A DNA stretch of 64,000 bases from Ectocarpus siliculosus. Lineage: Eukaryota > Sar > Phaeophyceae > Ectocarpales > Ectocarpaceae. The notes under the pieces are model-generated. The model made no database searches and had not been told where the DNA came from. It saw nothing but the letters and a program-made list of their open reading frames with translations. Both the position numbers and the translations under genes were made by a program. The stretch lies in assembly GCA_000310025.1 (NCBI GenBank), contig FN649744.1:1326869-1390868 (forward strand), in the 5' to 3' direction. Shown here in pieces: positions 42,247-64,000 of this stretch (its first letter is position 1; every line of letters begins with the position of its first letter).

Positions 42247-45062
42247 GGGAGAGAGAGAGGCGCACTCCTCCGTTGCGGTGAATGAAACCAACTAGAGCAC
42301 GAGGGCCAGAGAAGTGGGGAGCAAGCAAGAAGACTCGTGGCTTTTGACTTTCTGCACCCGTTTCTTGTGGCGTCAGTACAGTACACACACCGCAATTCAC
42401 AAAAGACTGCACTCATCCGGCAAAGAGATACGCTACGCAGCAGGACAACCTAACCTGTCCTGGTTGAAGGGAAACGCCCGAACGACGTTGGACCGGCACG
42501 AGGGCGGTATCCCCACGGGGAGGCCGGACGTCCTGCAAGTCTCGTCGGAGATGATGAGCACTGTCGTCTCCGTCGGGTCCTCGCAGGAGGCCTGCAGGTG
42601 AGACGCCTGGAACCACACACGACGACCCCCAATCGCAAAAAACACGAGCGCGAAACGTTGACAGATATCGCTGCTGCTGTTGTCGTTGTACACAACGGTA
42701 GGAATGACTGCAACCAGGGCCCCGAATCTTCTCGAATTCGGGTTCCTCAGATGAGAAACCAACCCATACTTTTCTACCATCAAATGTCGATTTCGAATTT
42801 TAGTTGTGGCTCATCCAGCTAGCTCATCGGATTGCTTATCGCGTAGTACGTTCATTTGTGTCAGTGTCCGTTCCAGGCTGAATTATATCGAGCTTTTCGC
42901 TTTGAGAGATTTAAGAAGCAATTGGTGCACCTTCCGTTGCATGAGGGATATTGATTGCCTTCAAATTGAAAAGGGCCATTGAAAACGTTCTTACCTCTAC
43001 CCAGTACCACCCACTTCCCACTCTTTCAATGCAAATAAGTACCACCCGCTACTGCATCGAGTTACAGTCCAAACTCAGGTACAGCAATACGTACTCAGGT
43101 ACAGGATAAGAGTGAGCCAGCCCGTAGGTAAAGAGATTGTCGAAACCAAACATCGACCCCGCCGTTGATATTCAAATCCGAAGAACAAGCTGCTCCTAGG
43201 GAAACAGACAAGAGCGGGTACCCATATACCCACCCCTCTCTCGACAAAAGGCTACTGCTTAGCGGAGACCACTGACGAAAAAGGGGCGAACCACTCAAAA
43301 TATCATTAGATGTGCATTTGAAAATTTCCCAGTACAACCACAGACAGCTAGCGCCCGCACAGAAATAACTTCGGCGGTTCATGAAATTTTTTTGATATAG
43401 CCTCGAAAAATTAAAAACCTAAGAACATGAGCACCATTTGTGAGCTCGGATAAGAACCCCACAACTACAACCTTCTTGAACTACAATATAGCGGCCATTC
43501 GTACACTGCTGTAGCATGTCCGTAGGAACCAAGAACCCAACCTCGGCCGGCCAAATCTTCTTCTTAATGCGGGCGCGAACTCGGTGTAGCCGCCATGTCT
43601 TTTTGCTGCTATAGCATTTCAGACATGTCACAGGCATGGAATTTTATGTCTCAGGCAATACCTCAATTTTTGCCTCAACTTGTCCACAAGCCTGAGGTGC
43701 GCCGCCTTCGGCAGCATACCTGATCGGGCTAACTAATCGGGCTAATTCTTCGAGGACGGGTCCTGCTGTTGGTGGGAAATAGTTGAGAAAATTACATCGG
43801 GCAGACTCCGGTTGGCAATCTCACACCGTGTGCGGAAGGCGGAATACGCCCAGAACTCGGTTACTCCGTCCTCTGTTGAACTGTTGTTGGTTGTATCTGC
43901 CAAGGAAAGCATGTTGTTGTTGTTGTCTTCACATTAAAAACCGTTCCGTTCTCTCTGCTCAGTAATACCTTCTTCTGTCCGTACTATTTAGTCTAACACT
44001 TGACGGGGTCGATTCTCGTGGTCACAGGACTTTCGCCACAAAGGTACACGGACCCGAAGACTCCGCAAGCCAATAAAAGAAAAGCGTGCTATTGCATCAT
44101 AGACAACGACCACGTGAGTGTCTTTCCAACGGTGCGGAGGACCAAGGCAAACAAAAAATAAAGAGGATGGAATCCTAACCCCCTGAAGGCGGGGGGGCCT
44201 TCTTACTCCACCACATCCCGTTCTACTGTGGGTATATCTCGAATGGGTAGTCTTTCTGTGTGTGTTTTTATTATTCCTTAGTTCGAAGAGCAATGTCCAA
44301 CAAAGTATGCAACCCCTCATGGGTACATACTCCGGCATGCAGAGTACGCATGGTACGCACCCTTTGGAGGGGAAGTAGTAGATGTTAACCGTACGTCGAT
44401 GAGCAACGGGGCGCGTTCGCTAGACGACACAAAGCGTGTAGATCGTACATTAGTTGAGCCACAGCAGCAGTATAGTAGCAGTAGTCTCGTCGTCGTGGCA
44501 CATGTATGTGTGGTGTCTCTCTCAGCAGCCTGTACAAATTGCCTTCCTTGACTACCCACACCTGATAGGGTTTGACGTGCGTCCCGATGTCCTTCAGATG
44601 CACTACCCGCACTTTCTTGTCCACTGCCGCTTCTTCGTCTCCCTCCGGGTGACTCACGAAGAAAGGAGCGGCCGAGCCCTCCGTTATCGGTGCGTGCGGG
44701 CAGGGATTTGCAAACTGCACCGACACCACCGCGGTGTTGGTGCTGTCCTCGAAGGCTCTCACTCTCTCCTTCTCTCGAGCCAGGTTCGACGTGTGATGCT
44801 CCACCTCGACCACGATGACGGAGTACCTGGTCTTGCTGCCGAAGAGGATGCGTTCGTCCTCCTCCTTCCACGCCATGGCCGCGTGCTGCCGCCGCAGCTC
44901 GAGCGGATCAATGCGTCTCAAGCCCCGATCGGAATGGACATTCTGGGGGGTCCGTTCAGCGGCAACAGCAGCAGCAGGGTCATCCGAACTCGCAGCAGCG
45001 TTCCAATGGTGGAGGGAGATGATGACCCCAAGAACAAAAACGGACCACAATCGCGCTCGCAT
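39002..45062 (-). CDS. Exostosin-like glycosyltransferase (GT47), tandem copy A
   Basis: Six exons in transcript order: 45062-44562, 42591-42455, 41399-41282, 40828-40620, 40088-39881, 39118-39002 (TAA). Phases are consistent and the sum is 430 codons (429 aa). The start ATG gives an N-terminal hydrophobic segment (LWSVFVLGVIISL), i.e. a signal peptide or type II anchor, so a Golgi location is likely. The exostosin signature is [20 protein letters not shown] across exon 4, continued by SIPIVSKLD in exon 5; the conserved acidic and Trp-rich C terminus is ECVAWYSMAM then [11 protein letters not shown]47 enzymes transfer sugars from UDP-sugars to glycans; the substrate cannot be told. Introns are 0.4-2.0 kb and carry microsatellites. 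Copy B, 1.6 kb downstream in transcript terms, has the same structure. No disabling mutation is seen. Confidence 0.85.
41642..41683. repeat. (GGGT)n microsatellite
   Basis: ggtgggtgggtgggtgg run in the intron between exons 2 and 3 of GT47 copy A. The homologous intron of copy B has a shorter ggtgtgggtggg remnant near 49820. Confidence 0.8.
42150..42262. repeat. (GACA)n microsatellite
   Basis: About 18 gacagaca units flanked by ga-rich sequence, inside the same intron of GT47 copy A. It makes spurious frames on both strands (Arg/Asp/Thr or Cys/Leu/Ser/Val repeats). Confidence 0.9.
43913..44050 (+). repeat. Dispersed repeat E, copy 2 (GT47-A intron)
   Basis: Aligns by eye to 32298-32435 over about 130 bp with roughly a quarter of positions changed. 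Unit class unknown. Confidence 0.5.
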
Positions 45063-45201
45063 AATCGCAGCTGTCCGTTGAACTAAGAACAAGTTCCGCT
45101 GGCTGGTTTTCAGCTGCAGCTACACGACATGAGGTAGTGCTGCCCGAAGAGGAGTCGCCCGCTGGTATGAAACGTTCCAGGTTCACCAACTCGATTATTG
45201 A

Positions 45202-49411: not shown

Positions 49412-51755
49412 AAGAGCAAGGAAGCCGTGATACATGAGAAGTTAACATTTTCCACGCAACAACAAGACACCACACGACGCACCTGCAAGTTGAAAAGCAG
49501 CGATCTGCTTGAAGCGAGCGGTCGCCGGTCTTCGCTGACGAAAGGGAACGTGTCTCGCGGACCCAGTGGCAAAAAGGCGTTCCTCGGCAAGCCATCCGTT
49601 CTTCATGTAAAACAACCGTGGTCGGGAGGAAAGAACAAGGCGTTCAACCAAAATTGCACGGTACCGCCGAGTAGGGTTGGTGGAATTGACAAGAAAGTGC
49701 GTGCGAAATTTTCTGCGCATGTGGTCGAACGGAAAACAGCATAGTGGGTGCTAGTGCGAGCGTACGTGTACGCCTGTATGGACAAGTGCTGCATCAGGTT
49801 GGTGGTATGAGTGGAGGTGTGGGTGGGTGCCTCCCAACGATCAGCTTGGCTTCCTTGGGGTGACAACAAGAAATCTTCGACCATTCATATCTAGGCAGGC
49901 TGCATCCCACCAAACGTTCCCTCACATAGTTATTTTCCAGAGACACAGTAGTAGTGAAGTCAGTCCGCGCCACCAATGTTATTTCACAGCAGGTCAAACC
50001 TAACCTGGGCTTGTTGAAGGGAAACACGCGAACGACGTTGGCCCGGCATGAAGGCGGTAGCCCCGGCGGGAGCTCGGGCAGCTCGCACGTCTCGTCGGAA
50101 ATGACGAGCACTGTCGTCTCCGTCGGATCCTCGCAAGAGGCCTGCAGGTGAGACGCCTGGAACACACACAATACAAGTAGTTTCTTCTGTGACTGGTACG
50201 GTATCTGTCTTTAACCCGGAGAGTAGCATAGCCTCCCCCATGACGCCCCCTCACGGGGTCCCAGATCGTGGCCTTAAAAGCATTTTGTGTTTTCAGCCGC
50301 ACAAGACTGACGGATTTTCCTTGGTCAGCCGGTTTGCACGGTCGATGCTAAAAATAACAATGACAGATACAGGAGAGAAACAAAAACAGCGCGTGGCAGT
50401 TGATTGGTCGAGAACGCACTGCTGTTCTTGCATGCTCGCTTGCTGCCGTTCGTTCGTTCCCCGCAGGTCTTCAGTTTTGCAGCAGACGATGCAGGTTGTT
50501 CTCTCCTTGTGATCCCATTCCGTCGACAATACCCGAATCCGCGCAACGCACGCCAGATGGTTTTGCAGATGGCGATACTGCTGACGAGCTACTGGTATAG
50601 ATGCCCTATTCCCAACGACTTCAAACAGGAGTAGCACAGACTATGCGTACGTATAGTAAGATTTCGGGCTTATTTACTCCATAACGTTTTCTTGACACGT
50701 TATCGACGGTATATTGTTTGGGAAGTGGACGGTGTACCATTGCGGTTTTCGGCGGCAACGACTTTGGCGGGAGGAAGCGGTACATAACTAAAATGTACAT
50801 GTCGAATATTTTTTGCCTGCTGCATGAATGAGGTCCCACCCAAGAAAACTGCGTGCTGCAGAATAAATCGCCCTTTGGGTCGCCTGTCTGTGTCGTCAAT
50901 GTGCTCTAATGTATGCTACGGCGGTAAGATATGAGAATTTCGATACCGCAGCATCATAAACTACAATACTCCTCCATCCGCACGTGCGTCCTTGTGCTAC
51001 AGCGGAACAATTGTAGACTACTCTGTAGTGATAGAGTAATGCATACATTCCCGAGTGAGTGTGCTCTTAAAAAAAATCGCAAACATGCGATGTACGGACC
51101 TACCTACAGTAGACATGTAGTCTAGAGAACCGACGATCGCGCATGGTCGCCACATCACGCAACCTAACAGGTTTCCTCTTGGAATACAAACAGCTGTTGT
51201 CCTCGCCAGCACAGGGATGCCTTTGCTGAACATGTGTACAAATACTGCTGTGCTGTGTACCTGATTGTCGTTGATTTTGTTCCAGAATTCCTTGAGGTAG
51301 ACAAGCCGCACCCTCTTGTCCACCCCTTCCGCCGGGTGCCCGACGAAGAAAGGAGGGGCCGAGTCGTCGTACGCTCGAAGAAGAGTGTCCGCAAACTGCA
51401 TCGACACCACCGTGGTGTTGCCGTCTTCGAAGGCTCGCACCCGTTCCTTGTCCCGGATCAAGTTCGAGGTGTGGTGTAACCTCTCAACTATGATGACTGA
51501 GTAGGTGGTTTTGCCGCTATAGAGGATGGCCGGGTCCTCCTCCTTCCACGCCATGGCGTTGTGCTCCAGCTGCAGCTTGTGTCCATCTACCAGGCCGCGA
51601 TCGGTCTTCCTCAATTCGGACCTCGAGTACCGTGTCCGGGAGGAGAGCCGTCGGCCCGGAGCGAGGTCGTCGTCGCAACTCACAGCGACCCAGTGCCGAG
51701 AGCTGCTGGTGATCGCGAGGACCACAGCGGACCATGACGCCAAAACGCTCCGCAT
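46636..51755 (-). CDS. Exostosin-like glycosyltransferase (GT47), tandem copy B
   Basis: Six exons: 51755-51261, 50141-50005, 49600-49483, 49033-48825, 47959-47752, 46752-46636 (TAG), giving 428 codons (427 aa). Exons 2-6 have exactly the lengths of copy A (137, 118, 209, 208, 117 nt) and the same phases. The N terminus ([17 protein letters not shown]) is a hydrophobic signal or anchor. The exostosin core reads [20 protein letters not shown] then SIPIVSKLD; the C terminus is ECVAW-like ([11 protein letters not shown]) with FGEGHDLFP retained. Exon 1 of A and B shares AMAWKEED and HHTSNL segments. A TATA-like taaatata lies about 250 bp upstream of the ATG on the minus strand. Both copies look intact, so this is an expressed-looking tandem pair rather than a gene and pseudogene. 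Confidence 0.85.
49321..49409. repeat. (CT)n microsatellite, about 44 units
   Basis: Pure CT run of about 89 bp, in the intron between exons 3 and 4 of GT47 copy B. It generates Ser-Leu and Arg-Glu repeat frames that are not genes. Confidence 0.95.
50270..50380 (-). repeat. Dispersed repeat C, copy 2
   Basis: The reverse complement contains catcgaccgtgcaaaccgg then ctgaccaaggaaaatccgtc, matching copies at 7640-7760 and 59645-59790. It lies in the first intron of GT47 copy B. Confidence 0.55.
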
Positions 51756-51759
51756 ATCG

Positions 51760-54700
51760 CACCTGTGGTACAAACTACCCTGGTCTGTTGTAGATATGAG
51801 CCCCGGTTGGCCGTTTTCAGTCTCCTTCTCTCCCACAACAGCAGCAGCAGTGCATTGATGGGGGGCAACTGAAGGGCCGGCGAGGGGGCAACATGGGCCG
51901 GCGAAGGGGCAACAGCGGACAGCCGCACCCGCAGAGCAGGAAGCAGCCCCCCCGCCTCCCCTCCGGCGCTCCCCACCCGCAAACTGCCCTTGCCTGGTCC
52001 GGTATATTTAGTGTAAGAAGATTCGAATAATCATTTGTCCACCCATATCTTGCCTTGCGTTGTACTTCTACACTTGGAGACTCGCATAGCAGCACGGACG
52101 GAACACAGAGAGGCGAGTATCCAACCGTAGATTCGTGAACCGTGAAAACGCGCATGACAGCAGTAGAGTGCAGTTTCCACAATAGTCTAAGCAGCATCAG
52201 TGGTGCAGTGGTGCAGCAAGAAATCTACTTCTTCGCCAATAACGTTCGCACCTTAAATAGTTGCGCCGCAGCTTGCTGCAGCGATTCGTTCCTTTGTTCT
52301 CAGTTCTCAGCTCTCCGCGCATCAATCTATGCGTGTGCATTCTACAAGTGATCCCTACGGAGTGGGCTCATGAGAGCGCAGTGTTACCAATGGGGATGAT
52401 GATGCTAAAGACAACAATAAAAGCAAGGACCAGCTCTCTGCGGTGTGACGTTTCTCCCAAGCTCACAAAATGGACATGTGTTACTGAGTCGAACAGCCCA
52501 GCGAACCTCATCGAACATCGAACCAAAGAGAAAGAACAAAATATAACGATTCCGTGTTCAGCAGCACATGAGCAATCTTATGCACTGCTGTGCGCAAGTG
52601 ATGGATTTGGCGAGGCATCGTGAGCTTCGGCCGGTGGTCCCGCCCTGACTTCGTCTTGATGTCGTATTTCTGAGGTTGAGTATTTGTAAGAACAATGAAG
52701 AAGAACCCTTGTGCCTGGGAGCGGATCTCGTCATCAACCAACCGCCCGCCCCGTTCCCACGAAGGGACTCTCTACGCGATTTCCCCACTCAAAAGGAGCG
52801 CAACGCGTTATGGGTAGCGGCGAGCTCTGCCACGGAGACGATGCAAAGACGACACGAGAAGAACAATACTCGACAACTTCTGTGGCAAACGCTTCTTCTT
52901 GTGTTCCCGAAAAAAAAAAAAAAAGAGCTACCGTCAGTCGTCCCAAATGAGAGGGTCAACACTTCTCTTGGACACTGCTGTTATGTGCGGTAGAGACAAA
53001 TCATGGAGGGGTCTTGGCAGTGATGAGGACTAAGGTCTCAGAGGTCTCTCTTTGTTGGTAAGCTATGTGAGGAACCAGTGAGATACCTCAAAGCCAAAAG
53101 ATTATGTGCATTGCTTTCGGGAGATAACATAGTTGCTGGAACAAACAACGACGCGCACAGCAACACGACGTACCTTACAACACTAGAGATACCCCCCTCC
53201 CCGTCCTTGCCCCCACGCCCCCAAAAAATGAAGCGAAAAGCCTGCCACCCTCCAGCTTCTTCCAATCACCCTCTCTCTGCCAAAAGCAGCCGTGTCAAAA
53301 CTGTCAAGATATATCTTGATGTCAGTCTCGCAACCGGACCGACTGACATAAGAAAAAGGAAAATGCCTGGCGGCACAAAACATACAAATAAATGCCACAA
53401 CCGGCGAGGTCGACAAAACACACCACAAAAAAAAAAAAAAGAGCAATGGGGAGTACACAGCAAGCCCCGCATACGTGCAAACGGCAATACAAAAGCTCAA
53501 TACACAAGAATCTGAAGGTGTTACTGCAGTGACGCTACAACATATAGCTCTTCTTCTAGCCTGAAATAAAAGCACAAGAAGAGCCTTTTGCGGGGGGGGA
53601 AGAGGGGGGGAAACCCTATCAGGGTGACGAGGAGGCGTTTTCCGGTAAGTAAGCCTGTTACACAGATCAGGAGACACAACGCCAGCGGCGTTCGGACCCC
53701 GCGATCCATTGTCCATCGGTTGCTCCGAGACAGCTCTCTCAGCTGAAATCGCCCCTTTTTGCGCAGCACCACGTAGTAGTTGCTGCCTCTTGAGAAGCTC
53801 CGCAATCCCGGCGCTTCGAGCCCCACCGTTGGATCCTCTTTGGCGGATGTCCAAACACTTTGACGCTACACGTACATGCTGCCTCCCGCCTGAAGGCCCC
53901 GATGAAGAACTTTGCGCGCGGCGACCTCCGTCTACTGACTGTTGATTTACCCCGCAAGCAACTCACTGCAGTTAATACCGTTTAAAAAAGATCATCAGCC
54001 AGTGGAAGCTAGGCCGCAATATCTCCTAACGCGGCGTTTATAATTCTTGACCAGAGTGGTGGGCATCTGCGAGCTCTCGCTCTATGGTCCCAAAGTTCCC
54101 CCACTGCGAAAACCTCGCGTGTTCCTTCCCGACTTTATAGGGGTGTGAGGTCAACGGTCTAACGGCAACGCCGTGTTCGGCTATTGAGTAAACACACACA
54201 CACACGCACCTTCACCGCTAGCCAGGTACATTGTCTGTCGGTCGATATCTCATCGAATCGGCTGCATCGATTCTTTACGTGAAGCGCTGTTGGCATCTCT
54301 TGCTTTTTTGTCCCTGCTGTGTGGTGGTGCTTGGGGGGTGAGCCCGATCATTCTTATCGAGCGCGAGCCCCGGTCGTTTCTCGCCACCCTCGCAAGCACA
54401 AGCAAGCTTTACTATCGAAGCAGCAGCGAAAAAAAACAAATCCCGCAGTTGGGTTTCATTTCACTCTTGGTCTAGAAGAACAACAAAGCAGAGGGTACTC
54501 GATACCACCCCGAATCTTGCGTCCTTTGGTTACTTCATTTCACTCTGCCTTCGTCAAAAACCGAACACAACAAATTGACCACCTTCGCACGCAAGTATCT
54601 CAAGAGGGGGTATACGGGAGTGTTGCGCGCGCGAGTGCACAGAGCGCATCTGTATGGCATCACCACCAGCACATCACCACTGCCGACACTCTCCCCCCAA

Positions 54701-54800: not shown

Positions 54801-56349
54801 TTACTTGGCGAACATGTACTCCTTGAGCGAGACCATGTTTCTAATTGCCATCCTTGGAGCGAAATCCTTCGCGCGAACCTTTCGCGAGTAGAGACCAATG
54901 GGGGGTTCCGGAAAGGACAGGGCGGGGGCGAGGGCGGGGGCGGGGTAGTCAGGTAAACGTATGCCGTGGTCGTCGGTAGCCCATAGACCCCGCGTCCCTA
55001 CAATGCCCGGACGAATCGATATGCCGGCTTTCGGCGGCCTAGTCCACGTTCACCAGAAGCTGGCCATCATTCTTGAGTTTGCGGCGGGGTGGTGAACAAA
55101 AAATCAACATCAAAAAACATATCTACGAGTCCTGCACCACACACTCTCGGACTTGTCAAAGCCAGCCCTGGAAGCTGTTGGCCTTCTTGGTCACGAAAAA
55201 GTCACACCGCACCAAATCGAGCGAACATCATCCACCAAGCAGATACTGGTGACATACGACGGGTCCCCCACGCAAGGCGCGTACCACACGAAATCGGCCA
55301 CATCGCACACCCCCCATAAACAGCCAAAAAATAAAAAACGTCGCCCCCCCGCACCCCGCACCCCAACTGGAACCCAGCCAATCTCACACGGCATGTTGTG
55401 CCAACTTGTGGCTAGGCCCTCCCCTTCTATTGTGTACATAACAGGTGCGGTGCAATCACGTGCTGTACATTTGATGTCTTGGACATCTTGCAGGACACAT
55501 GAAGGGGAAAAAAAACAACAAAAAAGCTCACCCGCAAAACCTTGGCCGTCTGCCCCGGCTTGCACGACACCACCTTCGGCGACACCGGATCACCGTCTCC
55601 GAAACCCTTACCGCAGAACAAGAAGTCACCTGCATCGGCGGTGGACGCCACGACAAGGTTAACTAGCGCGACCCGGGGGGACAACGGCGAAACAACAAAC
55701 TATATCGCTGCGACAGGGGTCTACTTGAAGGCATAAAACTGGCGGACGGGGGGGAAGAGCATTTTCTCAATGTATACTGCTAGACGATGCACCATCGTAG
55801 GCGCTTTCATCTGCCCCGTGAACAACAGAAAAGTGCTTCTGGTGCACGGCCATTCCTTCCAGGTGCTCTTTTTTCTGGGCATTGCAGGCGACCAAGCTCG
55901 TTGTTTCGTTTACATATATCGTTTGCCTGCTCTGCCGTGCACTCGGGAGTAGAGTTGCGCCTTTCCGACTTCCTCATGGCATCATGCCCCCACTCAAAAG
56001 CGGCCTCTCAACTCCCGTCAAAAACAAGCAAGTCCATGACAAGATTTCGGCACACACAGCGAAGGGTCCCCGTACGTACCTTTCCCCACCACGCGGTCCT
56101 TTCTGTGCCGCGGGCAAACCTTCCGCGTGGGCGTCCTGCCGTCGCCCCCCCTTCGGGCTCCTTGCCCGCCGACCTCCCTCCAGGCCCGGCCGTTCGCCTT
56201 GCCGGCTTCCTCGAGGCCGTACTCGGCGGTGATGGAGCCTTCCAACACCAGCAGCACGAACGATCCCTCGTTGTCCACGCCGCCGTCGTCGTAGGAGTCG
56301 TCGCCGCCCGCCGCGCCGGCGGCGTTCGCTGCCGCCGAAGCAGCGGCGG

Positions 56350-56381
<32 letters not shown>

Positions 56382-59300
56382 GCGTCGGAGTCCTCCTTCG
56401 CCGGCTTGCCGCTGCCTCTGTTCGCGACGGCTGGTCTGCCGCAGGTGGTGACGCTCCGCGCCCCGAGGTTGACGATCCCCGATCGGGCGGGCGGACTACC
56501 ATCGCCGCCAGAGCTCGCCATCGCCCCCGTCCCCCCAGCCGCCGCCTCCGCGTGGCCCTTACCCTGCCCGTCAACCGCTGCCTCGGGAGAAGAGGACGGG
56601 GGCGGCGAAGAAGAAGAAGAAGAAGAAGACGAAGACGAAGGAGAAGACGAAGAAGAAGACGAAGAAGAAGAAGAAGAAGAGTAAGACGGTGGTGGTGGCG
56701 TGAGGCGAGAGGGCCGAGACACGGGCGGCACCGGGATCGGGGGCGGGTTCTTCGGCTCCTTCCTCTTCCAGAGGGGGGGCAGCGGCCCCTGCACCGGCAC
56801 GACCTTCTTCCACTCCCCGGCCGTCTCCTTGCCGTCCTGGCCCCAGACCACGTCCTCTTCGCCGAAGGTCGCCTCCTCGCCCTGGAAAACCTTGGAGAGC
56901 ACCGCTTCCGCCAGCTGGGTCAGCCGCACCTCCCGCTGATAGCGTGTTCCAATTTGGATGGTTGCGGCGTGACGCAGAAACGCGAAAACGACAAATAAGA
57001 GACCCGCGAAAGACTTTTTAGTGGTGACCTCACAAGGCTACCGGACGGAAGCGGACACGCGTGCGCCGCAGAGTAGACAGGCGCACGACCTGCGATACGC
57101 ACGGTTTCTCGGTCTTGTCGGCCCTGGCCGTTGCGCGAAGGAAGGGATCCAGGAAGCATCCTCGACAAAAACTGGTTTGGTACGTATGCGGCATTTGATG
57201 AAAACCATGTCGACACATTTCTCCTCGACAGTGAAAGGACATGCCACACACAATTACCAGATGAGGTATGTATTAAATACCCAACAGCTTACACCTTGAT
57301 CCACGTCCCAGGCCCAGCCGCAATATCTCTGCAAAGCATTCACGGGCTAGCATAGGAGGTGCGAATATGGGGGGGGGGCTACGGCGGCCTTCGAATTCGT
57401 CCAAACCAACAACAAGCACCGCCAAGCCGCCAGCGCTGTTTCCGTTCCGTTTCCGTTCCGTTTCCGGTTCCAAGCACCGCCCAAACCAATCAAACTAAAC
57501 CCACACAAACCTGGAGATCGAGGCCCGCGCGCACGCCCTGGAATGTGTCCGTCAAGAGGTCGAACATGTGCTCCGTCACCACCAGCACCTCGCAGTCGCC
57601 CCCGCTCGGCTGCCCGACGCACGTGCACGTGGCCAGCCTCGGCGTCGAGAGCTCATCCGACCGAAGCAGCTCCACCTCGCCAAACGAAGCTCCTGTAATT
57701 CCATCATTTTTGGGATATGTTTTTGTTCAGTAGGGCCGGCGATATATTTGCCAAAATCATAAGAAACGCAGCTCCTGTTTTTTCGACCATTTTCTTTGTT
57801 TATGTTTCAGTGAAGCCGGCGATATACATGCCAAAACCATCTGCCACAATGGAGTCAGTGCGGGTACAACCCGACAAAACGGGCGATGGCCACGCCCCAC
57901 GGCTTGTCTCGAAGATCGGACGCTGGCCGGAGACGGAGGAGCACCCACACTCAGCGGAATATCACCGTGTTTAAGGAAGAAAGGCTGTATAGATACTGCT
58001 GTGAGCGAAAAATCCCTTCACATGCAACAATCAACACCGACCGCAGACGAGAGGAGAGAGATCGAGCGCGCATTCGCCCTCGACAAAAAAAACAAGCACG
58101 TGACGCTTTCATTCTCACCGGGAAGCTGCCGCTGCAGCCCAGCCTGCTCCTGGAGGGAGCAAACCGAGAACTCCACCACGCCCTTCATCAGCAGGTAGAA
58201 GGTGGGGTCCAGCTGCCCTTCCTTGTACAGGGTCTGGCCGGCCTTGATCTTCTTCGGCGGGCACAGCGGCGGCACCGTCTCCACCATCTCCCCGTACGTG
58301 ATTCGCCGCGACTCGGTCGCGGGGTCTCCGTCGATCGCCCTCATCATGTCGGTGATCTCCGCGCGGGTGAAGCGCTCCCCCATGGCCAGCGTGATGCGCT
58401 CGAGGTCCCCCCGGGTGATGTACCCCTTCCGCCCGCGGTCGATGATGCCGCACGCCGCCTCGCGGGACCCGATCGCGTACGGACGGATGCCCACGCTCGG
58501 GATCGTCAGCATCGCGATGAACCGGTCCTCGCTGGCGCCGTCCGCCTCCTGCTGGCTCTTCTCCATGTAGTCCGCGTACATCGCCGCGGCCTTGGCTGCG
58601 GCCTCCTCCTTCGCCTTCTTCTCCGCGGCTTCGGCGGCGGCGGCGGCCTCCGCCGCCGCCGCCGCAGCCGCCGCCTTCTCCTTGGCCTCCATCTCGGCGG
58701 AGGAAGCGGCGGAGAAGCGGCGCTTGCGGGTAGGCGGCGACTGGAACGGCGAGTTCGGCAGCAGCACCGCGGGGATCCCGGCCCCGGCGAGNNCCGGCGA
58801 GCCCCGACGGGGCCGGCGGCGGCGCCGGGGCCGGCGGCGGCGGCGGCGGCGGCGCCTCCCTCTTCTTCCTCCTCTCGTCCATCTCCAGGCGGAGCTCCAT
58901 CAGCGCCCGCAGGCTCTCCTCCTCGTTGTACTCTTCCGCCTCGATCTCGACGAGCCCGCACATGAGGGACAGCATGCAGGTCTTGAGCCTACGGCGGGCG
59001 GACCAGAACTTCTGGAGCGCCTCCGGGTTCGTCGGCGCCGGCTCCCCGTGCCGCGGGTGCCTCTCGGCGCGGTGCCGGTGCATGTGGCCCCGCGGATTCA
59101 TCGTGCGGAGGGTCCGGTCCCCTCCCCCGAGAGAGGCCAGCTCTAGCCACGGGTGCTGCAGCACCTCCTGCGGCGTCGCCCTGAGCTCCGGGTCTGGCGT
59201 CAGCATCTTGAGGATGAGGTCTCGCGCGAGCGGGGACACGCTCGACCTGGCCCCTCCCCCGCCCTCCTCGTCGTCCTCTGTGTCCGGAAACAAGGCCGCC

Positions 59301-62300
59301 TCGCCGTACCGACCGTCGCACATCCCCAGCACCCGCTTCGCCATTTCCTCGTCGGAGATCGACATGTCCGGGGTGAAGGGGTGCTCTCCCGTAAGGAGCA
59401 TGAAGAGGACAACTCCCAGCGCCCACACGTCGCCCATCGTGGTCACCACCACGTCCTTCCCGTCCAGCATGCGCCGCAGGCTCTCCGGCGGGTTGTACGC
59501 CACGGTCCCTCTGTTTGCGGGCAAAATACAACGGTTGATAGTGGTGTTGTTTATCAAAAGCCTCTCCTGTGTTCAATACTACTGAAGTACGTATCATAGC
59601 ATGCGGTCCCGGTCCGTCCCCCCCCCCCAAAACGTGTGTGTGTGTGCCGTTAGTGTTAGCATCGACCGCGCTAACCGGCTGACCAACGCAAAAGTGTCAT
59701 AGCGGGAAAGTGTGTGAGCTTGTTACTAAAATCGACCGCGGCTGACCAATGAAAAGGGGTCAGTCAGTATTGTAGCGGGAAAAACAACGTGTACACGCTA
59801 TGTATCAAAATCAAAGGTGTTGTATAGACATCGACCCGACGACCCATGCAAAGACATCGGGGTGAAACAAAAAAAACGTTTCAAAAAGGCCATGGTTTGG
59901 GGACGCCGTGAGGGGGTACCCGACTCACGGCGATCAAGTGTTGCACAAGAAACGGGCCGTGCGAAAAGCTAAGCCGCTGTGCAATATCTACATGTGTTTC
60001 GTAATGTAGCATTCTTTGGTCACCTTGTGTGCATCCCGGAGAGGGTGGTGCCTCCCCCTAGAGCCATCTCCACGGCCGACCCGAAGTCTCCCAGGCGAAC
60101 GCCTTCCCAGTCCACGTCTCCCGTGCTGCTGTTCGTCAAGAACACATTTTCGGGCTGCGGGCGGGCGGGCGGTCGTGTCGTAGCGGTGGTCGAGGCGGTG
60201 GCGGCGGCGGTGACAGAACCAAAGGGAGGGTGAAAGTTATAGAGAGAGAGGGAGAGAGAGAGAGAGAGAGGGAGAGAGGGAGAGAGAGAGAGGAGAGAGA
60301 AAGACACAGACTTGGACACCGGCCAGGTCGGTGCCCTCCATTGTTCCGTAACGACTACCAAAAAATTATCAATACAGACGGGACGCAAGACCGACAGATA
60401 CAAACAGACGGAGAGACAGCACACAGACGACAGAATGCGAGACACAGACGACAGATAGAGATACAACACAAGACAGGCACAACAAAAACCACGCCGGACG
60501 GGCGCCACCCACACCTTGACGTCCACTTCTGCGATCGACAACCCAAAACACCACAAACAACAAGACACGGAGAGCGGCGGCCTCACCTTGATATCCCCGT
60601 GGATAATTCCGTGCAGGTGGACAAAAGCTACAGCCTCCACCAGCGAATTCATAAGCGTCGCCGTGTGGACCTCGTCCGGCGGGCCGCTGTCCACCAGCAA
60701 ATCGAACAGCTCTCCTCCCCGCGCCAGCTCTTTTTCGTGTTCCATGTTTTGTTGCATGTGAGAAGTCGGTGAAACGGTCAAACAAAAGTTCAGGGAGTCA
60801 AGTACAACAGGCGGTGCTGCGGCGACCGCCACAGTCAGTCCTACCAAGGTGAGGCTGTTTGGTTTCGCCCTTTCCTCCGCCAATTGATGACGAGGGTTTC
60901 GAACACGAAAAAAAACGGAGACAGGATCATCGTGAGACCCGCACGTGCTTTGTGGGCTCGAACTCACACCCAAACAGGAAGACGAATGCTGTCGCGCCCT
61001 CGGTAGGCTAGCTGAAGCCATCGGAGGACACCTTCCAACCCAACTGGACAACAACAAAACCAAACTTGGCCATGGCAAGATTTTCAGGGAAAGTGCAAGA
61101 ATAAGGTATGAGTCTCCACTCATCCCGTTGTGGGTCCCCTGGGAACGGCGGGGGAGGGTCGGAGGCTCTTCAAAGTCACGGGACTCCATGCAGACCGCGT
61201 AGGTTCCAAGATTCGGGATGCCTCTCGAGTCTCGGCAACGCGGTTGGACCAAATCCGGCCGCTATTCCGCCGCCAGCGTCGGACGCAACCAGTGTTATTC
61301 CGCACTAATAACTCCCCAGCCTGTTCACCCCTACGCGGATGGATCTCAGTTCAGCACCGCCTTTCCCTTCGGCCTTTATACACGCTGCTCCAATTATCGC
61401 TATTAGTCTATCTCTGGATCATCAGATCTCTATGCGTATGCATACGGCAGTACATAAATACAGCAGCAGTATTACCTTTCTTTCTTGACCCCGTCGTTCA
61501 ACATGCACTACACACACATAAAGGTAGCAGATACTGACAGATAGGCAAAAGTCGAAGCTGCAGACAAGTGGGTGGGTGTGCAACGTGAGAAGCACGATGA
61601 CCAACCACTAAGAGTCTCGGCGAATTCCGCAAGTACTTCGGCAAAAGTCTTGGCGAAAAAAAGCCGCGCGCCGACTGTTCTACGCAAGGCTTGTGCCGTT
61701 TGATTTGGATGAGACTTCGTTCGTCGTAACCAACCATGTACGCAGGTTCAAAGGAAAGCGGACCTCGGACTGGAGGCTGCCCTGCGTGAGCAGGGCAATT
61801 TAAAAAGCGTTTTTATCACAATCCACAAGTACTACGCAGTAACCCAGAAAACGTCCGTCCATAAAGCGTCTTTTTGCCATAATCTTTTTCCAGATGAGAA
61901 ATCCTTCGCCGTGCGGGCCAAAGGCGGAAAAACTTGAAAGGAAAACAAGACAACGAAGGTGCATCTATCTGGTGAAGCCTCACCCATGGTCAGGTAGTAG
62001 TAGTCATCATCTTCGAAGATGTCGTGGAACTGCGTCACGTTGCGATGCTCTCCAGCCAGCTGTTGGTTGTGTGTCGTCGCAGTTGATATTTTAGGGGTAC
62101 CATCGTTAGCGTTGCCGGTGTGCCCCCGCCCCCCCCAAAAAAACAATCGCACGGAGACGTGCAAGCATGAAAATGTAAAGGTGACGCATGACAGGCAAGA
62201 GTGGATACCGCCCCAAGGGTAAAGGAAGCACGATTACTCGTGCTACGCACACACGCGGGGGCAGGCGGGAGGGAGGAATGTAAAACTACCTTGCTACTTG

Positions 62301-62420
62301 TACCACCGACGAAACGAAAGAAAAAACGGGCGACTGAAGACGATCACCGCCGTGTTTCTGCATCAACATGCAACGATCAAGCAGGGCATCTCTCCCTCTC
62401 CCTCTCTCTCTCCCTCTCTT

Positions 62421-62454
<34 letters not shown>

Positions 62455-63374
62455 TGATATTCAAGTATTAAACCCTCGTTCCTACCTTGAGCACTTCGAC
62501 TTCCCAGCAGATCTCGGCGAAGGTAAGGTCGGGGGTCCTCGTCCTGAAGGACAAGTGTTCATACCCAAGGTCACGAAGAGAAACGGCAGGGTCAACGATC
62601 ACGACCACGAGCTACGCGAATTTTACCAAGCGCAGCACAAACGCGCAGAAAACAACAATGATTGGGGCATCCCCGGTGGAGCTCCTACACACTAGCTTGC
62701 TGTTCTCAGCGGCAAAGCGCTTCGACAGCAGGACGAATCCATACCAAAGACTCCTCCCACGCTGTCAATAGTCAGGCAAGAGACGCCGAAGCAGCTACAC
62801 ACACAGGTAGCTGTTATGCTGCATAAGCACCGGGACCAGCGCCAGGCCACCCAAAAAATACAGCTGTCATCGAGCGTACAGGCCGACGCGCGAGCAGCGC
62901 GAAAGGTTGTTGCGTTGGATTCATCCCACTGTCGATATAATCTCGCCCGTGAGACACGGGGTTTGGACTTGCCAGCGATCGTGAGCAGCACTCCACATCG
63001 AACGAACGGCGATCGCTCCTACAGAAAGAGCATCACCCCATCCCCGGGGGATATTGGTACACGCCGACATTTTCAACAGGCATCGTGGTTTGAAAACGAA
63101 ACCGTGTAATCTTGCAAGTAGACTAGCGGTCGATGGGGGGTTTTCCACGCCTCGAGTCATGAACCTCAGTGCCCGATAATATCGTGATCTCTCACCTCGG
63201 AATGCGCTTGACGGCAACCACCTTTCCAGTTATCCTGTGCTGGGCTGTGCAAACCGTCCCGAAGCTCCCTGCAGAACAAACCAAAGAGGAGGCCGGATTG
63301 AGCTAAAGCGAATACCACGTACATTTTCAAAATACCGTCACCCCGGTATGCATACCTGCGATTGTGGGAATCAT
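54801..63374 (-). CDS. CDPK-like protein kinase with EF-hand pair and two C-terminal cyclic-nucleotide-binding domains
   Basis: Exons: 63374-63356 (provisional ATG), 63268-63196, 62543-62486, 62059-61984, 60729-60587, 60154-60024, 59510-58119 (with a 2-N gap), 57692-57511, 56935-56080, 55629-55532, 54878-54801 (TAA). Phases match throughout; with the gap collapsed the sum is 1032 codons. In order: P-loop AGSFGTV, AVKRIPR Lys, alpha-C Glu (EICWEVEVLK), hinge YYYLTMELARGGELFDLL, catalytic loop IIHGDIKPENV (HGD instead of HRD), DFG (LGDFGSA), YNPPE, GDVWALGV; then a CDPK-like junction (LQKFWSARRRLKTCMLSLM); an Ala/Glu coiled region; a degenerate EF-hand pair (DRGRKGYITRGDLE and IDGDPATESRRITYGEM); CNB-A with an intact phosphate cassette (FGEVELL ... 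PRLAT); a long Ser/Ala-rich insertion; and CNB-B (GDFLFCGKGFG) with a degenerate cassette. The first exon is the weakest call, as a longer 5' end may exist. Likely a cytosolic Ser/Thr kinase responsive to calcium and/or cyclic nucleotide. Confidence 0.85.
56590..56690. repeat. GAA/GAC trinucleotide tract inside the kinase
   Basis: gaagaagaagacgaagacg run coding for the poly-Ser linker between CNB-A and CNB-B on the minus strand. Confidence 0.85.
58792..58793. other. Assembly gap (nn) in a coding exon
   Basis: Two Ns are flanked on both sides by the same 8-mer ccggcgag. Upstream and downstream kinase frames differ by one base. Treating the second 8-mer plus the Ns (10 nt) as a duplicate of the first brings the two frames together through a Pro/Ala-rich linker. 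Confidence 0.9.
59645..59790 (+). repeat. Dispersed repeat C, copy 3 (partly doubled)
   Basis: Carries catcgaccgcgctaaccgg then ctgaccaacgcaaaa, and a second half-copy cgaccgcggctgaccaatga 60 bp on. It lies in a kinase intron. Confidence 0.6.
60239..60300. repeat. (GA)n-rich microsatellite
   Basis: agagagagagggagagagag tract in the kinase intron between the DFG exon and the catalytic-loop exon. Confidence 0.85.
62392..62456. repeat. (CT)n-rich microsatellite
   Basis: ctccctctctctctccctct run just downstream (transcript sense) of the alpha-C-helix exon of the kinase. Confidence 0.85.
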
Positions 63375-63661
63375 CGTGATCTCCTTTTATCTGCTCCAGA
63401 GGCAGGCTGGCAGGCAGCAAGGTGCACATGAACCTACGCATACAGCTGTACCTCTGCAACGCCGCATGCACAAGACGACACGGCGTGGAAAACAAAAACA
63501 AAAATCCCAGCATCGAGTTACTTTTAGGCAGACTAAATGCATTGCTGGACTCTTTTCTCTCCGAGAGAAAAATCAGCAATGATTCTTCCGAAAACAACAC
63601 CCGGTTGCAACAACCGCCGCGTACAACAAACCCTCTAATTCAATCCGATTACAGGTCGTGA

Positions 63662-64000
63662 CGAGGGGGGGGGGGGGGGGGGGGGGGCCCCAAAACCGGG
63701 ATGCCCCAATGGAAACCTTAAAACCAGGGCCCCCCCACCCCCAAAAAAACCCCGGGGTTTCCCCCGAACCGGGCCTCGGGGGGGAAAATTGGCCCCCGGG
63801 CCCCTTTGGGGGGGGGGGGCCTTTCAAAAAAAAAAAAATTTCCAGGGGGGAAAAACTTTTTGTTTGGGGGGGCCCCCCAAAAAAGGCGGGGAACCAACCC
63901 AACGGGGGGGGGTTCCTACCGGCGGCCCGCCGCCGTATGGGAGGGACCTCCCCGAAAAAGCCTGAAAAAACCCGGGGGCTACAAAAAAAAAAAAAAAAAA
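63662..64000. other. Low-quality contig end
   Basis: Composition changes abruptly to stretched homopolymers (about 22 Gs, then repeated runs of 4-9 C, A, G, T) and ends in 18 As. This is typical of uncalled tail bases from a Sanger trace rather than genomic sequence. Nothing here should be annotated. Confidence 0.85.

Follow-up and report, generated by a model that had tools for sequence, protein, structure and literature searches.

The 64,000-nucleotide stretch of the Ectocarpus siliculosus genome analysed here (the window) carries one multi-exon gene on its minus strand, at 63,268-54,801, whose parts follow one another in the order protein kinase, junction, EF-hand pair, cyclic nucleotide-binding (CNB) domain and CNB-B-like region. 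The reading we favour, with moderate confidence, is that of a single CAMK-group Ser/Thr kinase with a C-terminal regulatory region composed of a junction helix, an EF-hand-like pair, a first CNB domain (CNB-A) and a decayed second one (CNB-B). A sequence-only reading had proposed such a one-chain architecture, and, after corrections, a kinase with EF-hand-like and CNB parts on one chain is partly confirmed as real: a long exon is shared by these parts (Table 1), a second locus, C11, yields a colinear model, and two further loci, C30 and C346, have a kinase ahead of CNB domains, with a two-base assembly gap (NN) inside the shared exon as the caveat.

The exons were rebuilt from the sequence with GT-AG introns whose phases agree and with the long exon split at the NN gap; the joined model comprises 1031 amino acids followed by a TAA stop. 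Of the eleven in-phase exons proposed earlier, the borders and phases hold up, but the first exon is doubtful and the long one is interrupted by the gap. This first exon gives A-G ahead of S-F-G, as against the G-x-G of a glycine loop. Past the window end, the genome record consists of 17,635 N, and the true start of the gene probably lies in this 17.6-kb run; the last part of the window leading up to it (63640-64000) is homopolymer-rich, like a poor-quality contig end. Elsewhere in the window, two minus-strand open frames (44388-45119 and 51021-52007) are related, with 81/175 residues identical, and possibly represent a local gene family, and a plus-strand frame of 396 codons (1615-2802) contains a 126-bp tandem repeat (1731-1982) of charged sequence. 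Pfam matched none of seven other open frames in the window, these three included, and scanning the window for tRNA genes and Rfam families was negative.

Table 1. Features of the kinase gene and their positions in the window
Feature	Position	Strand	Remarks
Proposed exon 1 (ATG...)	63356..63374	-	Doubtful; glycine loop incomplete
Kinase exons	63268-63196, 62543-62486, 62059-61984, 60729-60587, 60154-60024	-	
Long exon	59510-58119	-	Kinase C-lobe, junction, EF pair, first half of CNB-A
Protein kinase domain	59144..63268	-	Five exons and start of the long exon 59510-58119; Pfam Pkinase
Junction NPEALQKFWSARRRLKTCMLSLMCGLV	58949..59029	-	Read from the model; counterpart in C11
Assembly gap NN	58792..58793	.	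8-bp direct repeat CTCGCCGG on either side; frame change
Calmodulin-like EF-hand pair, degenerate loops	58282..58443	-	EF-hand_8 below cut-off; profile search; hhalign
CNB domain, first half	58119..58254	-	Pfam cNMP_binding; PKA regulatory subunit 3of1
CNB domain, second half, cassette FGEVELLRSDELSTPRLAT	57511..57692	-	Retains Glu and Arg; 4 residues inserted
Exon with CNB-B-like start, Pro/Ser/Ala-rich insert and SFVLLVLEGSITAEY	56080..56935	-	Not recognised as CNB
Exon DFLFCGKGFGDGDPVSPKVVSCKPGQTAKVLR, degenerate cassette	55532..55629	-	Preceded by a phase-1 intron, as in C11
Last exon and TAA stop	54801..54878	-	

What kind of kinase is this? Pfam Pkinase covers residues 7-289 of the joined protein (1.3e-51), and the best rows among its PDB matches are CDPK, ribosomal S6 kinase alpha and CaMKII, with no PKA- or PKG-named entry among the best 60 of 1790 matches; the CDPK-like character assigned to the kinase earlier is thereby upheld. 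NCBIfam returned bacterial kinase models, each below its cut-off. The Lys of VAVK, the alpha-C Glu, PEN and DFG are kept, and the catalytic Asp sits in HGD, not HRD. Since the catalytic residues are kept, the kinase is expected to be active. The Arg of HRD is missing from the kinases of the window, C11, C30 and C346 alike (HGD, HFD, HAD and HAD, respectively). The segment labelled as junction, which has the counterpart FHRGRMQLKACLLAVMSGL in C11, presumably resembles the autoinhibitory segment of CaMK and CDPK enzymes. As to the CDPK-type junction claimed at this point, a segment of similar appearance is seen, but the PDB alignments of the window protein stop by residue 304; those of the C11 protein reach about residue 295, past its 252-residue kinase.

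The kinase and EF-hand frames differ across the NN gap. The eight bases of CTCGCCGG are identical on both flanks and, counted once, let the frames join exactly; as this holds only if CTCGCCGG is an assembly overlap, we infer the join of kinase and EF-hand part on that premise. Random 8-mers taken from the two flanks matched 22 times in 20,000, and among the ten N rows listed (three of which form one continuous run) no other is two bases long or flanked by an overlap of more than one base. Past the gap, the kinase frame likewise stays open, to 58115, without yielding EF or CNB; the join is therefore not dictated by the sequence as such but is carried by the overlap and the domains. Were two genes or contigs joined at the gap instead, the kinase would end near 58.8 kb and a separate EF-CNB gene would follow. 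The change of reading frame and the continued openness of the kinase frame in another reading would suit this scenario, yet we regard it as very improbable, given that the overlap restores the frame exactly, that C11 shows this order in a gap-free model, and that four introns, two on each side of the gap as judged by eye, are common to both genes.

The C11 model (C11:3669989-3677024) runs colinearly over 752 residues from glycine loop to stop, and its phases agree. Its Pkinase (7.7e-61) and cNMP_binding (9.2e-8) matches both exceed the Pfam cut-off, and no Pfam EF-hand match was found at E 1. The junction, the EF pair and a VPPLCP joint between EF and CNB are common to C11 and the window gene, and across the EF-CNB part 45/109 residues are identical (E 7e-23 in a single comparison). 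The shared introns, of the same position and phase by eye, fall in the glycine loop and ahead of three features: GGELFD, the CNB-B-like region and D/E-x-L-x-C-G. The CNB-A cassette of C11 contains a long insert, and its EF loops and CNB-B depart from the usual much as those of the window gene do. At L008 3500-3880, the sequence surrounding a C11 exon end and its donor site is present, as seen by eye, in three imperfect copies.

The EF-hand pair of the earlier reading is calmodulin-like by profile, although EF-hand_8 stays below the Pfam cut-off of 28 bits (6e-4 and 20 bits in the joined protein, 24.1 bits for the region alone) and the loops are degenerate. A two-sequence profile of the pair (window and C11) matched calmodulin at 3e-14 to 3.6e-11 among the best 60 of 261 matches, a query against the PDB found calmodulin at 1.3e-6 for the whole query and 0.019 for a single stretch, and hhalign assigned the window pair 97% against an alignment of other EF-hands. 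In loop 1, DRGRKGYITRGD, positions 3, 5 and 12 are not usual ligands, loop 2, DGDPATESRRITYGE, carries an insertion, and the window protein has one EF pair only, as compared to the two pairs (four EF-hands) of a CDPK. With loops that lack the usual ligands, calcium gating appears weak for the window gene. The pair would most likely serve as a structural relay and not as a calcium switch.

Pfam recognises a single cNMP_binding domain, at residues 583-670 (1.7e-7; 31.5 bits, cut-off 27.5), which reaches 6.4e-9 when the CNB region is queried alone, and the PDB query matched the PKA regulatory subunit 3of1 at 5.8e-7 for the whole query and 0.0039 for a single stretch. The CNB-A cassette keeps its Glu and Arg (FGE...PRLAT), with four extra residues between them, and a nucleotide input through this domain is plausible. 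The position after the cassette Arg is typically Thr in PKG and Ala in PKA; in the window gene it is Leu, so that the preferred nucleotide cannot be named. The CNB-B-like region, queried without its Ser/Ala-rich insert, had no Pfam match; it also had no PDB match at E 10, and hhalign gave it a probability of 0.70% against the CNBs of this genome. It is 30% identical to the equivalent C11 piece when the pair is aligned alone, and unpaired in the full-length alignment. At most, the second CNB survives as a relic. Of the two CNB domains claimed, CNB-A stands by its Pfam score and CNB-B finds no backing from Pfam, PDB or hhalign; the Ser/Ala tract described as the linker between them does exist, but sits inside the CNB-B-like region. 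The domain search of the joined protein, suggested along with these claims, thus returned Pkinase and one cNMP_binding over the cut-off and EF-hand_8 below it.

How might such a protein be controlled? In the arrangement we favour, the junction would block the active site at rest. Binding of a cyclic nucleotide, the putative ligand, would move CNB-A, and the EF-like pair, which is joined directly to the first CNB-A strand, would pass on the movement, which in turn would release the junction and unblock the active site. A paralog in decay could leave similar traces: expressed, it would have lost ligand binding by EF and CNB-B, and its kinase would be constitutive or controlled through phosphorylation or partners only. 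The degenerate EF loops and CNB-B cassette, the four-residue insert in the CNB-A cassette and the low-complexity inserts are consistent with decay, but the 1,031-residue open model with intact catalytic residues, the Glu and Arg kept in CNB-A and the similar departures of the C11 EF loops and CNB-B argue against it, and we consider it an unlikely, if serious, contender. Less probable still is a true dual-input kinase, with the window gene gated by calcium and cyclic nucleotide together, as the sequence-only reading had envisaged. A calmodulin-like EF pair and CNB-A do lie in one chain, and C30 combines a canonical EF loop with intact cassettes. However, neither loop of the window gene has the usual calcium ligands, its second CNB is at most the relic described above, and a Phytophthora infestans kinase with weak EF-hands was negative in a calcium-binding assay (PMC3019232); for the window gene the proposal is not supported.

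Regarding the control scheme favoured here, the related loci, sought by a search of the whole genome, add a further element: in C30 and C346, C-terminal EF-hands could contribute a calcium input. Both loci are known from ordered matches on one strand, whose pieces were put together. On the minus strand at 2547198-2533836, C30 has, in order, a kinase, an EF-like part (25.3-26.1 bits, cut-off 30), CNB-A (28.1 bits in the genome search), CNB-B with FGEMALMLKQPRSATVVC, and a C-terminal EF-hand just under the cut-off of 30 (29.6 bits) with the canonical loop DTDKSGYLDANE; the assembled pieces score 7.8e-13 for cNMP_binding, and the CNB-A and CNB-B cassettes are intact. At C346 (minus strand, 16.3-4.8 kb), a kinase is followed by a junction and EF-like part recognised by eye (12.8 bits, cut-off 25, E 0.1), CNB-A, CNB-B and an EF pair that exceeds the cut-off at 42.3 bits; here, the assembled pieces give cNMP_binding at 2.2e-40 with two CNBs, both cassettes being intact. 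The 14 anchors of C346 all follow in order; 12 of the joins between them allow a splice-compatible path and one has an unbroken frame, but such paths are common and this evidence is weak.

With a kinase ahead of CNB at the window, C11, C30 and C346, the arrangement looks like that of a small gene family and not like a reading error. Searched against the genome, the window EF-CNB piece found C11 weakly (E 0.07 and 1.0) and one other place, C25:530451 (0.98), but missed both C30 and C346. The genome search for CNB domains gave 19 matches at 13 places, which include neither the window nor C11. A kinase lies upstream of the CNBs at two of these places (C30 and C346); at three (C25, C479 and C13) the CNBs are upstream of the kinase in the PKG order, and the remaining eight, C9 included, were not placed relative to a kinase. 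At C9:3384216-3390238 (L018), the layout CNB-CNB-EF resembles that of C346, and no kinase was found in about 24 kb upstream. In a kinase tree built from partial fragments, the window kinase groups with two kinases termed C2a and C2b (0.875 and 0.751), while C30 and C346 form a pair of their own (0.993); a single origin of the fusion is consequently not established. C2a and C2b are located at C2:1280634-1284610 and C2:2605982-2607179, and no EF or CNB was found beside either.

Dual input, judged from its DTDKSGYLDANE loop and intact cassettes, would be more credible for C30 than for the window gene. Extending this to a kinase-EF-CNB-CNB-EF family, in which calcium and nucleotide would act C-terminally on a CAMK-type domain, where C30 and C346 would be the working members and the window gene would respond to nucleotide only, is a tentative proposal to which we attach low confidence, since at all four loci the EF part that separates kinase from CNB stays below the Pfam cut-off.

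Among known systems, CDPK/CPK enzymes come close in uniting in one chain a CAMK-type kinase and C-terminal calmodulin-like EF-hands, with a basic junction that the window gene appears to match; in contrast to them, the window gene has one EF pair with degenerate loops instead of four EF-hands, and a CNB domain after the EF-hands. With PKG and the PKA regulatory subunits it shares CNB domains, and the best PDB matches of the assembled C346 CNBs are putative cGMP-dependent kinases (2.1e-22), while those to PKA regulatory chains begin at 5.2e-19. Unlike in PKG and PKA, the CNB of the window gene comes after the kinase, neither before it nor on a separate chain, an order (kinase, EF, CNB) that holds for the sequence read, the missing N-terminus probably lying in the N run past the window end; and unlike PKG, its kinase is CAMK-like, not AGC. 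An oomycete counterpart may exist: for P. infestans, Table 2 of PMC3019232 counts 8 proteins with cNMP binding among AGC and CAMK kinases, and passages of the paper name four kinases with EF-hands and, for a diatom, one CDPK-like kinase with two EF-hands. The comparison with the P. infestans CAMK/cNMP combination is by these passages, in which domain order, EF-hand and gene are unspecified for the CAMK case (PMC3019232). As this combination may be a relative of the window gene, we make no claim to its first sighting. Within the open PMC literature surveyed, we recognised no description of the kinase-EF-CNB order. Scans of viral, bacterial and archaeal contig collections found no relatives, which has no bearing on stramenopiles.

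As a rule, calcium and cyclic nucleotides each have their own kinases to sense them. If true, a family in which a single CAMK-type kinase is followed by the two kinds of sensor would provide a defined protein on which combinations of these messengers can be tested, and C30 and C346 are more suitable for a start than the window gene. Moreover, with a layout opposite to that of PKG, it would imply that a kinase can come under CNB control from either of its ends.
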